23,003 nt of DNA. Source: a virus. The stretch is taken from positions 1-23,003 of IMG/VR virus record IMGVR_UViG_3300046009_006292, one strand, 5' to 3'. Under the pieces are notes generated by a model. That model did not search any database. It was not told where the DNA came from and was given only the letters and a program-made list of their open reading frames with translations. The translations under genes were made by a program, and so were the position numbers. Positions 2,548 to 20,033 of this stretch are shown one piece after another; positions within the stretch are counted from its first letter, which is position 1, and every line of letters begins with the position of its first letter.

Positions 2548-2854
2548 GGGGTCTTAGCTCAACGGTTAGAGCATCCGACTCATGTTAATAAACGTGCCCC
2601 AACTAGGAAACTTTTTGGTGAGCAGGGGATGAATTCAAGAAAACCTACGGGGAAACCTATGGCAATCTTGAGCCAAGCTCCCGATACATCGGGAGAAGGT
2701 GCAGAGACTACTGGAGAGGTAAAGTCCTCTTAATGACCAGAATAAGCGTCCCCCACCTAAATCAAATTGATATGGTGATGAAATAGTCCGGAGAGTATCG
2801 AAAGATACACAAATCTGAATCGGCAGGTTCTCGGTTCAAATCCGGGAGGCCCCA
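2548..2854 (+). tRNA. tRNA with CAU anticodon, probably tRNA-Ile2, split by a group I intron
   Basis: The exons (2548-2583 and 2818-2854) join into a 73-nt cloverleaf. The acceptor is GGGGUCU/AGGCCCC, the D stem GCUC/GAGC, the anticodon loop CUCAUAA and the T stem CUCGG/CCGGG. The top pair of the anticodon stem (27-43) is U-C, a mismatch. The CCA end is not encoded. The D arm and anticodon loop resemble bacterial tRNA-Ile(CAU), whose C34 is changed to lysidine so that it reads AUA, more than elongator tRNA-Met; the identity therefore depends on host TilS and is probable, not certain. The intron lies between anticodon base 36 and base 37. Confidence 0.9.
2584..2817 (+). ncRNA. Group I self-splicing intron (IC3-like) in the tRNA anticodon loop
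   Basis: The 234-nt insertion has the group I core. P1 is CAUGUU (2581-2586) pairing with AACGUG (2591-2596), with the U-G pair at the 5' splice site. P2 is CCCC (2597-2600) with GGGG (2625-2628). The stretch GGCAATCTTGAGCCAAGC (2661-2678) matches the P3/P4 region, GGTGCAGAGACTA (2698-2710) contains the P7 5' strand GACTA, and TAGTC (2784-2788) is its partner. P9 is GTATC-GAAA-GATAC. The intron ends in G at 2817. These match the small introns of cyanobacterial tRNA-Leu and Azoarcus tRNA-Ile(CAU), and the latter also uses a CAU target with a GUG guide. There is no ORF inside. Confidence 0.93.
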
Positions 2855-2889: not shown

Positions 2890-3741
2890 ATGAATCAAAG
2901 TGTATGTCCCATATGTTCTTCCCCGAAGAAGGAATCTAATAAATTCTGTTCCTATTCTTGCCGTAATAAATCAAGAGTTTGGAATGATGAAAGTAGACAA
3001 AGATTATCGGAATCGGTGAAAAAGTCGATACAAAATGATTACTACGAAAAGATTTATACCTGTTCAACTTGTGGTAATACTGAAACAAGAAATGTACATA
3101 AAAATAAGAAAGAACGTAAATTTTATTGTTCTTCAAAATGCGCACATTCTCGTATAAGAAACGAATCTGTAAAAGATAAAATATCAAATTCTGTAAAATC
3201 TTATTATGATAAAGTTGGTAGATTTGAAGGTCTCGTAATAAAGTGTGAAGGATGTCAAGTAGATTTCTTTACAAAGAAACGAACACAACGATTTTGTTCA
3301 CGTAGTTGTGCTTCAAAATTCAATATGTCACTCGATTCAAGAAAAGAACGGTCTCGGTTGAGAATGATGAAGACACTTGAATCTCTTTCCCAAAAAAGAA
3401 GAAGTAAGAATGAAATCATGTTTTTTGAATTGTGTATTTCAGAGTTCAGTAATGTAAAACACAATGAATCCATTTTTGATGGATGGGATGCCGATGTTAT
3501 CCTAATGGATGAAAAGGTTGCCGTTTTGTGGAACGGAAAATGGCATTATGAGAAGATAACAGAAAGGCACAGTGTGTCTCAGGTTCAAAATAGAGATAGA
3601 TTGAAAATGAAAGCCATGACTAAAATTGGTTGGACACCGTATGTCATAAAAGACATGGGCCGTCATAATAGGACTTTCGTAAAAACCGAATTTGAAAAAT
3701 TCAAACAATGGTTGAAAAATCATTTGGAAATGTCAAAATAA
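2890..3741 (+). CDS. EDxHD (Vsr-like) homing endonuclease with zinc-finger array
   Basis: The 283-residue protein has three N-terminal CxxC...CxxxC fingers (C6/C9/C20/C24, C58/C61/C80/C84, C119/C122/C136/C140) and then a Vsr-like nuclease fold. Likely catalytic positions are E175 (RSKNEIMFFE), D200 or D202 (GWDAD), H219 (GKWHYE) and D236 (QNRDR). This is the EDxHD pattern of phage homing endonucleases such as I-Bth0305I. The gene is free-standing, starting 36 bases after the intron-bearing tRNA ends, so it is not intron-encoded. It looks more AT-rich than the ligase gene, as expected for an invading element. There is no good Shine-Dalgarno site; a TCTATTTAT motif lies 5 bases before the ATG. 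Confidence 0.85.
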   Translation: MNQSVCPICSSPKKESNKFCSYSCRNKSRVWNDESRQRLSESVKKSIQNDYYEKIYTCSTCGNTETRNVHKNKKERKFYCSSKCAHSRIRNESVKDKISNSVKSYYDKVGRFEGLVIKCEGCQVDFFTKKRTQRFCSRSCASKFNMSLDSRKERSRLRMMKTLESLSQKRRSKNEIMFFELCISEFSNVKHNESIFDGWDADVILMDEKVAVLWNGKWHYEKITERHSVSQVQNRDRLKMKAMTKIGWTPYVIKDMGRHNRTFVKTEFEKFKQWLKNHLEMSK

Positions 3742-3754
3742 TTTCGTATCTTTG
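3723..3754 (+). promoter_or_regulatory. Bacteroidota-type promoter for the tRNA cluster
   Basis: TTTG at 3723-3726, a 20-base spacer and a perfect TATCTTTG at 3747-3754. It overlaps the endonuclease stop codon and lies 12 bases before the tRNA-Lys gene, so it probably drives the four-tRNA block. Confidence 0.75.
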
Positions 3755-3766
3755 ATAGTATAAGAT

Positions 3767-3839
3767 GATTTCGTAGCTCAGTTGGTAGAGCAACAGACTT
3801 TTAATCTGTGGGTCGTGGGTTCGAGCCCCACCGAAATCA
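3767..3839 (+). tRNA. tRNA-Lys (anticodon UUU)
   Basis: A complete 73-nt cloverleaf: acceptor GATTTCG/CGAAATC, D stem GCTC/GAGC, anticodon stem ACAGA/TCTGT around loop CTTTTAA, T stem GTGGG/CCCAC. CCA is not encoded. Confidence 0.96.
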
Positions 3840-3844
3840 CTAAT

Positions 3845-11481: not shown

Positions 11482-11878
11482 ACATGATTGTGGATTGATC
11501 ACTGCATATAATCATACATACACTCCACATGAAAACAAACAACGAAACAAACAACTCCAAGCAAAGATTCAGATCGGTAGATATGGAGTTGTAACACTTT
11601 CAAGTAAAGGATATGATATGTTCTTTATTGTTGATTTAAAGAATACAGGAAAACTCGGATATGATTTGAGTAAATGGTCACAAGAGTATGAACAGGAAAC
11701 AATCCACTTTATTCCGAAGGGTGGTATCGGTAGTGATAGAGTTTTTTCTCAAATTGATATGAATGAATTGAAGTCAAAAGAAAATGATATTCATAACTAC
11801 TATGAAGTTGCGAATATAAATGGTAAGTGGGCAATGACTAATATTGCCAACTTGGATTGGAGACATATTCAAGTTTAG
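11468..11878 (+). CDS. Protein of unknown function, phage/bacterial FIPKGG-type
   Basis: The 136-residue protein has the order LITAYN ... ENKQRNKQLQAKIQIGRYGVVTL ... FFIVDL ... ETIHFIPKGGIGS. I recall this succession (an ITA/ISA start, an EN-x2-RN-x2-L helix, a YGV strand and an FIPKGG turn) from uncharacterised phage and bacterial proteins, but no function is known to me. GAGAG lies just upstream of the start, which overlaps the small membrane-protein gene. Its end overlaps by 4 bases the convergent minus-strand gene. Confidence 0.7.
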   Translation: MKSYEHDCGLITAYNHTYTPHENKQRNKQLQAKIQIGRYGVVTLSSKGYDMFFIVDLKNTGKLGYDLSKWSQEYEQETIHFIPKGGIGSDRVFSQIDMNELKSKENDIHNYYEVANINGKWAMTNIANLDWRHIQV

Positions 11879-12762
11879 ATTTTGAATCTATAACCTACCT
11901 TTGTTCCAACAATTTCAATACCTTCCGTATATTTCGTCAAACGTCTAATTGGTTCCCACGTTGGTTCTGAACTCTGATGGAATGTTCCGAAATGAATCGG
12001 TAAGATAACAGGTGACTTCATCATTCTTGTCATTTGAAGTGCTTCTTCGGGAGTACAATGATTGTCTGAATATCCTTGATATGCCCCGATTGGCATAATT
12101 GATACATCGGTATTCCCAAATGTTGAAAACGATTTTGTGTATGCGGTATCTCCACCAAATGCAATCTTCAAACCATTTCGTTCTATGACATATCCGTTAT
12201 AACTTCTACCCGTTTTTATATGACCATCTCGTCTACATTTCTCACCCGGTAATCTCCAACCATTGTGAAGAACTTGTTTTCCTGTTATGGTTACATTGTT
12301 TACACAGATTGAGTCATTCCAATCTAACTCTGTTAGAGACTTCCATTCCAAGTCATTGATTATGTCTGATGTATTCTTTGCAGTGATACAATGGATTCCT
12401 TTTGGATTATGTTCCGTTAGCCAATTTAGAGTTTCTAAATCCATGTGGTCTATGTGGGCATGAGATATGAGAACAATATCAATCTTTGGTAGTTGTTCAA
12501 TTGGTATTGCTGGTTTGGTATATCTTGGTATTCCGATCGTAGTTCCGAGAACGTATAGTCCAATTCTATTGAACATAACTGGGTCGGTGAGTATAGTTGT
12601 CCCATCTATATCTAACAAAACTGTGGAGTGACCTATCCAAGTTGCAGTAAAAAATGGTTTGGAAGTATCGGTAGAATTGAGTATATTACCAAGTAAATTG
12701 TTGGTGAATATAACGGAACCACACGCCATGATAGATAGTCCCAAGAAGTTTCTTCTATTCAA
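11875..12762 (-). CDS. Metallo-beta-lactamase-fold hydrolase with Tat-like leader
   Basis: The 295-residue product has the metal site HAHIDH (H101, H103, D105, H106), a GGDTAY segment with the bridging Asp and a late histidine in LPIHFGTF, as in UlaG/NAPE-PLD-like lactonases and phosphodiesterases. The N-terminus, MNRRNFLGLSIMACGSVIF, has a twin-arginine motif (RRNFLG) before a hydrophobic stretch, so export by the Tat route in folded, metal-loaded form is likely. The leader is reached only with a TTG start (12762), preceded by GGGAG. It is the sole minus-strand gene in the window and is not typical for a phage, suggesting acquisition from a bacterium. The substrate is unknown. Confidence 0.85.
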   Translation of the reverse strand: MNRRNFLGLSIMACGSVIFTNNLLGNILNSTDTSKPFFTATWIGHSTVLLDIDGTTILTDPVMFNRIGLYVLGTTIGIPRYTKPAIPIEQLPKIDIVLISHAHIDHMDLETLNWLTEHNPKGIHCITAKNTSDIINDLEWKSLTELDWNDSICVNNVTITGKQVLHNGWRLPGEKCRRDGHIKTGRSYNGYVIERNGLKIAFGGDTAYTKSFSTFGNTDVSIMPIGAYQGYSDNHCTPEEALQMTRMMKSPVILPIHFGTFHQSSEPTWEPIRRLTKYTEGIEIVGTKVGYRFKI

Positions 12763-13432: not shown

Positions 13433-14317
13433 ATGTCTCTAAATAAGTTTTTTGATTTAACTGAAGAAGAGAAAGAAGAAATCTTTTTCAAGAAATATTT
13501 TGGTGGCATACCGACCTCTGTCATGCAATTCGATAAATCCCCCGAACTCATGGACTTTATCGACGATACCGACTCCGTAGGAATCGTAAACGGTGGAACA
13601 GCAACCCCTCGTGGTGGTGGGTACGCAAAAAACATGAGATACTCAATCTACAACCCAACACAGGCAGAATTCATTTTGAAATACTACACAGAAGAAGGTC
13701 AGGATATTCTCGACCCATTCGCGGGACGAGGCACCCGTTCACTTATGTCTCTTCGTTTAGGAAGGAATTATTATGGGATTGATGTTTGCATCGGCACGGT
13801 ACAGGACAATATCCGCAAGATTGAAGAAAAGAATTTCGGAAACAAAAAATGGGAAATCAAAGTTGGAGACGGAACTCGTCCCCACGAAGTCTTCCCCAAT
13901 CAAACGTTTGATGCGATTTTTACGTGTCCTCCGTACTACAACATAGAAAAATATTCAGGTAATGAAGGTGACCTCTCACATCTTTCTGACGAAGGGTTTG
14001 AAAGAAGTATCGGAGAAATGTTCCAAAACCTAAAGGGTATGGTAAAGAAATCAAACTACAAAGAGAAACGATTTCATCCTCTTATCTTCACGGTAGGAAC
14101 AGTTCGACGTGGTGAACGGGGTTTACTTGACATGGATTCTTTTTTTCAAGGAATGGCAAAGAATTGCGGTTTCACACTTCACGATAAATTGATTACGGTC
14201 AATCGGGCACCTGGTGCTGGATTCACGTTCCGAAGAAATTGGGATTACAAGTTTCTTTGTAAGACACACGAAACAACATTAGTTTTTTTAGATTATGAGG
14301 ATGAACATGAGGATTGA
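13433..14317 (+). CDS. DNA methyltransferase (amino-MTase, motif I before motif IV)
   Basis: The 294-residue protein has the SAM-binding motif DPFAGRGTRS (from D94) and the catalytic TCPPYYN (C165-P-P-Y168). The order motif I then motif IV differs from the two tandem enzymes at 18016 and 19011, so it is a separate lineage. The C-P-P-Y variant of the (D/N/S)PP(Y/F) motif occurs in some phage N4-cytosine or N6-adenine enzymes; the base and site are not evident. No restriction gene is adjacent, so it is probably an orphan protecting phage DNA. It lacks the Q-x-Y-F-x-F tail of the other two. Confidence 0.85.
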   Translation: MSLNKFFDLTEEEKEEIFFKKYFGGIPTSVMQFDKSPELMDFIDDTDSVGIVNGGTATPRGGGYAKNMRYSIYNPTQAEFILKYYTEEGQDILDPFAGRGTRSLMSLRLGRNYYGIDVCIGTVQDNIRKIEEKNFGNKKWEIKVGDGTRPHEVFPNQTFDAIFTCPPYYNIEKYSGNEGDLSHLSDEGFERSIGEMFQNLKGMVKKSNYKEKRFHPLIFTVGTVRRGERGLLDMDSFFQGMAKNCGFTLHDKLITVNRAPGAGFTFRRNWDYKFLCKTHETTLVFLDYEDEHED

Positions 14318-18015: not shown

Positions 18016-19011
18016 ATGGAAACAAATATCATTTTAGAAGGCGACTGTATTGAATCAATGAAGAAGTTGCCGGATGCTTTTATCAACACCTGCGTTACTT
18101 CACCACCTTACTATGGTCTTCGTGATTACGGAGAAGATGGTCAGATTGGTCAAGAAGAAACACCACAACAATACATTGATAAGATGGTTGAAGTGTTTGC
18201 AGAAGTTCGTCGTATTCTTCGTGATGACGGAACTCTTTGGTTGAATCTTGGTGATTCATATGCTGGAAGTGGCAAGGGTGCTTACGGAGATGGTGTAGTT
18301 AGATTATCAGAGAAGTCAAAGATTCAAGCTGGTAGTAAAGGAACTACAACTGGAACATTCAAGAAGACAAGTGTCCAAACTTTGAAACCAAAGAATCTTA
18401 TGGGTATTCCGTGGAGAACTGCAATGGCTCTCCAAGAAGATGGTTGGTATCTTCGTCAGGATATTATTTGGGCAAAGCCAAACCCAATGCCTGAGTCAGT
18501 CACGGATAGATGTACAAAGGGACACGAGTATATTTTCTTGATGACGAAGAACCCTGATTATTATTTTGACTACCAAGCTATCCGAGAACGTTCTGTTTCA
18601 AAGATGGACAGAGAACATCTTTCTCCGATTGGTGGAAAGAAGAACGCACTAAAACCTGGTTCGTATTCAGGTAATGCTCCAGAGAACGATGGGTTTAGAA
18701 ACAAACGTTCTGTGTGGAATGTTCCTATCCGAGCAAAGTCATACGAAGGAGCACACTTCGCAGTTTACCCCGAAGACCTTATCACACCTTGTGTTCTTGC
18801 TGGTGCTCCCGAAGGTGGTATTGTCTTTGACCCATTCTTTGGTGCAGGAACAACTGGTGCAGTTGCAATCAAGAACGGAAGAACTTACATTGGTTGTGAG
18901 TTGAATCCAGAGTATATCCAAGTTGCAAAGAATCGTCTTGACCCAATTCATCTCAAGGATGAGAATATGAAAAAGGCAGATGGTATTATTCAAAGTTACT
19001 TCCAATTCTAA
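18016..19011 (+). CDS. DNA methyltransferase A (beta-class), with candidate clamp-binding tail
   Basis: The 331-residue enzyme has catalytic motif IV TSPPYYGLRDYG (S29-P-P-Y32) early and the SAM motif DPFFGAGTTG (from D272) late, the order of beta-class amino-methyltransferases. SPPY is usual for N4-cytosine, and sometimes N6-adenine, modification. Shared blocks LRDDGTLWLNLGDSY and GWYLRQDIIWAKPNPMPESV are nearly identical in the next gene; the stretches between them, likely target recognition, differ. The C-terminus is IIQSYFQF, matching the polymerase tail pattern. No restriction nuclease is adjacent. The stop overlaps the next start by one base. Confidence 0.93.
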   Translation: METNIILEGDCIESMKKLPDAFINTCVTSPPYYGLRDYGEDGQIGQEETPQQYIDKMVEVFAEVRRILRDDGTLWLNLGDSYAGSGKGAYGDGVVRLSEKSKIQAGSKGTTTGTFKKTSVQTLKPKNLMGIPWRTAMALQEDGWYLRQDIIWAKPNPMPESVTDRCTKGHEYIFLMTKNPDYYFDYQAIRERSVSKMDREHLSPIGGKKNALKPGSYSGNAPENDGFRNKRSVWNVPIRAKSYEGAHFAVYPEDLITPCVLAGAPEGGIVFDPFFGAGTTGAVAIKNGRTYIGCELNPEYIQVAKNRLDPIHLKDENMKKADGIIQSYFQF

Positions 19012-20033
19012 TGATAGATACCAACGTTATATTGGAAGGTGATTGCATCCAATCTCTGAAATCATTACCGGAAGGTATTGTAAATACGTGCATAACTTCG
19101 CCACCTTATTACGCTCTTCGTGATTATGGTGCGGATGGACAAATTGGATTGGAAAAAACACCTGAAGAATATGTCCAAAAGTTGGTAGAAGTATTCAGAG
19201 AAGTAAAACGTGTTCTTCGTGATGATGGGACTCTTTGGTTGAATTTAGGTGATAGTTACGTCGGCGGGAAAGGATCAAGTGGGCAAGGTTCGTCTGAATA
19301 TCAGTCGATACGGGCTTCCGATGGTGTATCTATAAATCAACACTATCATAACATAGGTGGTAAAGGTGAAGTCCGCCCAACCGATAATATGGCTGTCATG
19401 CGAAAGTTGCGTCTAAAACCAAAAGACCTTATTGGAATTCCGTGGATGGTTGCATTTGCTCTTCGTAATGACGGGTGGTATCTTCGTCAGGATATTATTT
19501 GGCACAAACCAAATCCTATGCCTGAATCTGTATCGGATAGATGTACAAAATCTCACGAGTATATTTTCCTTCTTTCCAAGTCAAAGACATATTACTATGA
19601 TGCGGAAAGTATAAAGGAACCGGTCAAACAAGATTGGGGAACAAGAGATAGAACAAACGGAAAGTATCACAATACCGGAACTGGCTTGAATCCACATACT
19701 GGATTACAAAAGTCATATGAGAAGGCAAACAAACGTTCTGTTTGGTCTATCACAACAAAACCATTTCACGGAGCACACTTTGCAACTTTCCCACCTGATT
19801 TGATTGAACCTTGTGTTATTGCAGGTTCACCTGAAGGTGGAATTGTATTAGACCCATTCTTCGGGTCAGGAACAACTGGTTTGGTCGCAATGAGAAATAA
19901 TAGAAAATATCTTGGATGTGAACTAAATTCTGAGTATATTAGTATTGCGAATGAAAGATTGAAGCCAGTAGAAACAGAAATCAAAAACAAAGAAATTACA
20001 GAATCTCTTATTCAGAATTATTTTCAATTCTAA
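19011..20033 (+). CDS. DNA methyltransferase B (paralogue of A), with candidate clamp-binding tail
   Basis: The 340-residue paralogue of the preceding enzyme has TSPPYYALRDYG (S30-P-P-Y33) and DPFFGSGTTG in the same beta-class order. The segments between LGDSY and LKPK, and between the KSKTYYYDAESI region and RSVW, differ strongly from the first copy, so it probably has another target sequence. It ends in LIQNYFQF, again Q-x-Y-F-x-F at the carboxyl end. Its ATG shares a base with the upstream stop, showing coupled translation, and the sliding clamp follows after 25 bases. The pair arose by tandem duplication; the third methyltransferase at 13433 is not close to it. Confidence 0.93.
   Translation: MIDTNVILEGDCIQSLKSLPEGIVNTCITSPPYYALRDYGADGQIGLEKTPEEYVQKLVEVFREVKRVLRDDGTLWLNLGDSYVGGKGSSGQGSSEYQSIRASDGVSINQHYHNIGGKGEVRPTDNMAVMRKLRLKPKDLIGIPWMVAFALRNDGWYLRQDIIWHKPNPMPESVSDRCTKSHEYIFLLSKSKTYYYDAESIKEPVKQDWGTRDRTNGKYHNTGTGLNPHTGLQKSYEKANKRSVWSITTKPFHGAHFATFPPDLIEPCVIAGSPEGGIVLDPFFGSGTTGLVAMRNNRKYLGCELNSEYISIANERLKPVETEIKNKEITESLIQNYFQF

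Follow-up and report, generated by a model that had tools for sequence, protein, structure and literature searches.

A phage tRNA(CAU) gene split by an IA-like group I intron next to a putative free-standing homing endonuclease gene

The tRNA-Ile(CAU) gene of Azoarcus carries a group I intron of subgroup IC3, which lies between tRNA bases 36 and 37 and whose P1 helix pairs the exon letters CAU with a guide GUG. As for phages, a review of 2014 stated that every phage intron observed until then was in a protein gene, although phages possess many tRNA genes (PMC3984707). One such intron, that of psbA in S-PM2, is described as a partner in collaborative homing with the adjacent nuclease F-CphI, whose cleavage the intron blocks (Zeng 2009, as summarized in PMC6083498). 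Homing endonucleases are also known beside phage tRNA genes, since SegB is described as the homing endonuclease of the T4 tRNA region (PMC3984707, PMC13096335). Introns in phage tRNAs themselves have been reported, unclassified, for the Lak megaphage, e.g. in Tyr and Thr tRNAs (PMC6784885), and an interrupted tRNA-Stop was claimed for Vibrio phage pVa5, although its authors say that the tRNA may be an artefact (PMC5746245). In the literature searched, with most subscription journals outside its reach, we found no report of a group I intron in a phage tRNA. Here we describe a well-supported group I intron in a phage tRNA gene, together with a family of nucleases strongly associated with CAU tRNAs and a natural allele from which both the intron and the nuclease are missing.

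The window, as we call the whole 23-kb stretch of DNA that was analysed, is a linear virus record with a T4-like replication module (PolB, sliding clamp, clamp loader). Its PolB is 65% identical to that of Microcystis phage Mel-JY01, the closest isolate by this protein, in which RNA ligase, thioredoxin and PolB follow in the same order as in the window; Mel-JY01 has no match to the Rfam group I model RF00028, and the syntenic place holds only tRNA-Leu. Elsewhere in the window, the only sizeable minus-strand gene (11875-12762) reads from its sequence as metal-dependent hydrolase-like with a signal peptide, and DNA methyltransferase-like ORFs lie at 13433-14317 (by Pfam) and, in tandem and similar to each other, at 18016-19011 and 19011-20033 (by eye). 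The features of the tRNA locus are collected in Table 1.

Table 1. Features of the intron-bearing tRNA(CAU) locus in window coordinates
Feature	Position	Strand	Basis or remark
tRNA(CAU) 5' exon, bases 1-36	2548..2583	+	ARAGORN with introns, spliced fold; homologous to intronless tRNA-CAU L279:280-353
P1 exon strand CAU	2581..2583	+	U2583-G2594 wobble at 5' splice site; invariant in 27/27 introns
Group I intron, 234 nt, IA-like, without ORF, terminal G2817	2584..2817	+	RF00028; covarying alignment of 27 homologous tRNA-CAU introns
Internal guide sequence GUG	2594..2596	+	Invariant in 27/27 introns
P3 5' strand	2625..2631	+	Partner 2747-2753; 97% of cells paired; compensatory changes in 3 pairs
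P7 5' strand	2706..2710	+	Partner 2784-2788; 100% paired, invariant
P7.1/P7.2 insertion between P7 and P3, 30 nt	2711..2740	+	9/9 pairs compensatory; 84-88% of cells paired
P7.1; P7.2	2711-2714/2737-2740; 2715-2719/2726-2730	+	
P9 hairpin GUAUC-GAAA-GAUAC	2795..2808	+	Compensatory changes in 5/5 pairs
tRNA(CAU) 3' exon, bases 37-73	2818..2854	+	Intron-site comparison, ARAGORN with introns, spliced fold
CTATTTATAG, inverted-repeat-like, just before nuclease start codon	2878..2887	+	
Free-standing putative homing endonuclease, 283 aa	2890..3741	+	AlphaFold model, PDB comparison; family tied to CAU tRNAs
tRNA-Lys(UUU), first of resident cluster Lys, Leu, Ile, Arg, then Ser	3767..3840	+	

Standard ARAGORN, run with introns off, does not call the split tRNA at 2548-2854. 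With introns allowed, it finds a tRNA(CAT) at 2548-2855 with an intron of 234 nt, and under this setting no intron-tRNA appeared in 40 order-1 Markov-resampled copies of the window; a second call of this kind, at 3472-3840, was rejected as spurious and overlaps the plain tRNA-Lys and the nuclease gene. Joined, the exons fold into the 73-nt tRNA(CAU) that an earlier note on this DNA had proposed, with the T arm and acceptor stem intact and a U/C mismatch at pair 27-43 as the flaw. The CAU anticodon sits in an Ile2-type body (score 36 with the E. coli Ile2 reference, against 23 for elongator Met and 20 for fMet), the best annotated E. coli matches of the spliced tRNA carry the label tRNA-Ile, and its KVP40 match is annotated tRNA-Ile-2, all of which is consistent with an Ile2-like tRNA. 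A tRNA(CAU) of the Ile2 type needs the lysidine synthetase of the host to read AUA; the same phage also encodes a tRNA-Ile(UAU), able to read this codon. Because such genes escape standard tRNA callers, the tRNA complement of phages is probably undercounted.

The insert itself has the makings of a complete ribozyme. RF00028 covers 2572-2810 over its full length (model 1-253) with 73.6 bits at a gathering score of 50 (E 3.1e-17), and the insert has the P3-P9 core of the covariance model, a U-G pair at its 5' splice site and a G at its end. The earlier note had described a compact group I intron with a CAU/GUG P1 and a terminal G, inserted into a phage tRNA(CAU) between bases 36 and 37, and had named a covariance-model search for the core as a check; each of these points was borne out. 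For the covariation analysis, 27 introns at tRNA-CAU 36/37, seven compact phage ones and twenty bacterial, were aligned on a hand-written structure. Across them, 90.3% of cells pair in the group I structure, versus 72.0% in shuffles and 34-44% when it is slid; both sides have changed in 43 of the 61 pairs, with 320 double-changed cells versus 108 in shuffles. Since the ribozyme parts are intact and covary, the intron is probably self-splicing.

Its class turns out to be another than the one first suggested. The earlier note had suggested IC3, the type of Azoarcus and of cyanobacterial tRNA introns, but the covarying P7.1/P7.2 domain sits between P7 and P3, and a domain in that place is the mark of subgroup IA and rules IC3 out; IA is typical of phage introns. 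By its sequence the architecture is thus IA-like, and the nearest named introns are phage ones: those of crAss-like phages, of S-PM2 psbA and of Vibrio phages. The likeness of P1 to that of Azoarcus follows from the shared anticodon target.

A pattern scan of viral contigs for such introns returned 36 stretches, mostly tRNA introns, in the tRNAs CAU, Asn(GUU) (inserted after base 35) and Thr(UGU); a further viral intron, in tRNA-Lys, is described below. Seven different viral introns hold an internal HNH gene; those in tRNA-CAU are L031, L044, L046, L047, L049 and L050, the intron of L037 is HNH-bearing as well, with exons that are not cleanly resolved, and that of L062 carries an apparently degenerate HNH gene. 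That phage versions at the very same site encode HNH genes suggests that this intron class is a homing element.

The window intron has no ORF of its own, and a putative nuclease gene starts 35 nt downstream of the end of the tRNA. This ORF (2890-3741) lies outside the region treated in the earlier note (2548-2854) and went unmentioned there, as did the empty sister allele described below. Its N-terminus bears zinc-finger-like CxxC motifs, and the C-terminal domain of its AlphaFold model aligns with I-Bth0305I (3r3p, Z 10.6, 97/97 residues aligned) and with Vsr (1cw0, Z 9.5). The fold assignment rests on this full-domain structural alignment, because the Foldseek E-values by themselves are weak (0.016 at best). 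Pfam gave no match on the window nuclease and weak NUMOD3 and zinc-finger matches on other members of the family, and a PDB sequence search with the nuclease gave weak zinc-finger matches only. Residues E175, D200, D202 and H219, candidates for the catalytic residues of the EDxHD motif, are invariant in 16 family members, and judged by the model the ORF probably encodes a free-standing homing endonuclease.

A CAU tRNA lies within 200 nt in 28 of 39 distinct family loci, often overlapping the end of the ORF, and CAU accounts for 32 of 54 adjacent tRNAs versus 5 of 130 others (odds ratio 36, p 2e-16, with kinship ignored). These neighbours include CAU tRNAs of Ile2/Met-like and of fMet-like look; different as they are, they share the loop CTCATAA, which suggests the anticodon loop as the putative target of the nuclease. 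Two further members (L005, L036) abut an intron-bearing tRNA-CAU, which makes three of about 40 with an intron for a neighbour; most have an uninterrupted CAU tRNA beside them, and hence the intron is not required for the nuclease to exist. Conversely, four of the seven compact phage CAU introns are without this nuclease family, one of the four having a different nuclease upstream. In the contig L143, a more distant relative is flanked by tRNA-CAT and tRNA-Trp; the end of this contig matches, at 98%, the beginning of the ligase gene in the window.

Two kinds of sequence recur in front of these ORFs. Elements of the CTATTTATAG type are found upstream of the nuclease ORFs of L005, L017, L108 and others, as in the window, and TATTTATA occurs within 60 nt upstream in 13 of 40 family ORFs versus about 1% expected; the element could be a hairpin or a promoter controlling the nuclease. 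Sequences like decayed T arms stand just upstream of many of the ORFs (L006, L016, L017, L019, L022, L066), possible remnants of displaced tRNA genes.

A natural allele without the two elements is found in the sister contig G037 (L279, L305), whose PolB is 99% identical to that of the window. Here an intronless tRNA-CAU is followed 14 nt on by tRNA-Lys, and both the intron and the adjacent nuclease are absent. That a near-identical virus does without both suggests that the intron and the nuclease gene spread together as a mobile pair, though one empty allele speaks to joint presence and absence, not to joint transfer. Between the two viruses, identity runs at 86-98% in the 50-nt bins upstream, at 98% and then 92% in the first two bins downstream, and at 81% in both exons. 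Co-conversion of the exons from a divergent donor would give such a figure, which is suggestive only, given how short the tracts are and how widely identity ranges further downstream as well (0.54-1.00). A mirror case is offered by the relative G051 (PolB about 81% identical), in which tRNA-CAU is intact and the neighbouring tRNA-Lys(UUU) is split by a group I intron (79.8 bits; G051:C1:22391-22612, L300), with a free-standing HNH-like ORF of 218 aa (HNH by eye) right behind it. An HNH relative also led to phiKZ, where a tRNA intron was considered and rejected, no group I core being found. The split tRNA-Asn(GUU) that ARAGORN reports there (L265 2275-3124) encloses, in its 774-nt insert, the HNH gene PHIKZ296 and a complete tRNA-Asn, and this insert is perhaps an HNH element bringing a replacement tRNA.

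The reading that we favour, at a probability of roughly 60%, is that the phage tRNA(CAU) with its self-splicing group I intron and the adjacent nuclease represent collaborative homing into the anticodon loop. In the precursor RNA, the exon CAU would pair with the intron guide GUG, and guanosine bound by P7 would attack after U36; the freed U36 would in turn attack after the terminal G, whereby the two exons are ligated to a normal tRNA. On the DNA, the nuclease would cleave CAU tRNA genes that have no intron, in the anticodon or close to it. As the layout matches that of S-PM2 psbA and F-CphI, we infer that the intron would block this cleavage, protecting its own carrier by interrupting the cut site; when the break is repaired in a mixed infection, the intron and the nuclease gene would be copied as one.

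The alternative that fares best is that the intron splices and the nuclease is an independent, tRNA-associated homing gene, the two having become neighbours through chance colonization of one and the same target, or through turnover of homing endonuclease genes after loss of an HNH gene. Most family members indeed have no intron beside them, such turnover has been proposed as the origin of loci of this kind (PMC10448857), and the introns nearest to that of the window (L031, L050) hold an internal HNH gene, because of which the window intron may have lost an endonuclease gene of its own and met a second nuclease later. Yet the near-identical sister allele lacks both the intron and the nuclease, and the two stand side by side again in L005 and L036, as do an intron and an HNH gene in G051, so that we regard independence as unlikely, if far from negligible.

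A second alternative starts from bacteria. The earlier note took the intron as a sign of transfer between bacterial and phage tRNA genes, and the same pattern is present in bacterial genomes at no fewer than 116 loci (at least), which weakens a phage-only origin. Among the matches listed, tRNA-CAU is interrupted at 36/37 in 41 bacterial loci, and in 48 with phage and bacterial introns taken together; IA-type introns are common there (L146-L261) in bacterial tRNA-CAU (36/37) and tRNA-Asn (35/36), in Proteobacteria, cyanobacteria, Planctomycetes, Patescibacteria and others. In a tree of the intron cores, the window intron groups with L050, L031 and L054, and two bacterial introns, from Elusimicrobia (L186) and Cytophagales (L252), branch nearby among the phage ones at modest support (0.6-0.87). 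With the same class at the same site in bacterial tRNA-CAU and these two among the phage relatives, exchange between bacteria and phages is plausible; a tree built on about 150 nt does not, at this support, fix its direction. A recent arrival from a bacterial tRNA-Ile2 gene, with mobility due to recombination with host tRNA genes and not to the nuclease, is nonetheless improbable: the nearest sequences are phage introns (core identity 0.78, versus 0.73 or less for bacterial ones), and no member of the nuclease family turned up in those bacterial loci with the pattern that were examined. Hardly credible at all is a decayed, non-splicing insertion in a tRNA pseudogene dispensable to the phage, to which the 27-43 mismatch, the miss by standard ARAGORN and the presence of tRNA-Ile(UAU) might lend some colour, as the core helices are all intact, P1 and P7 are invariant, and the joined exons still fold as a tRNA, its T arm and acceptor stem intact.

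Collaborative homing at this one locus might be an instance of something wider. Tentatively, and at somewhat less than an even chance, anticodon loops of phage tRNAs may be a general homing hot spot, in which group I introns paired with free-standing nucleases of varying class, of I-Bth0305I/Vsr fold in the window and HNH at the tRNA-Lys of G051, invade neighbouring tRNA genes, the loop CTCATAA being recognized and the intron conferring immunity. Whether anticodon loops are nuclease targets, and how intron/nuclease pairs assemble, are now directly testable.

Set beside the described systems, the locus shares something with each. It has the tRNA, the 36/37 site and the CAU/GUG P1 of the Azoarcus intron, but differs from it in the P7.1/P7.2 domain. 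The interrupted tRNA claimed for pVa5 has an insert of about 2.5 kb versus 234 nt here. In Lak-C1, a CAU-type tRNA, identified by eye, comes after a homologue of the nuclease, and the 540-kb Lak-C1 genome has no RF00028 match. The C-terminal domain of the nuclease has the fold of the EDxHD homing endonuclease I-Bth0305I and of Vsr, from both of which it is set apart by its zinc-finger-like N-terminus and its association with tRNA genes. T4 SegB is likewise free-standing and tied to a phage tRNA cluster, but it is a GIY-YIG nuclease and involves no intron. In S-PM2, too, an intron stands beside a free-standing nuclease gene, that of F-CphI lying 66 nt downstream, and over 129 nt the cores of the two introns share 71% identity. 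That the nuclease cleaves, and that the intron blocks it, has been shown for F-CphI, and for the window pair both are predicted; F-CphI is EndoVII-like and the window nuclease has the I-Bth0305I/Vsr fold, and where the target in S-PM2 is a protein gene, the putative one in the window is a tRNA gene.
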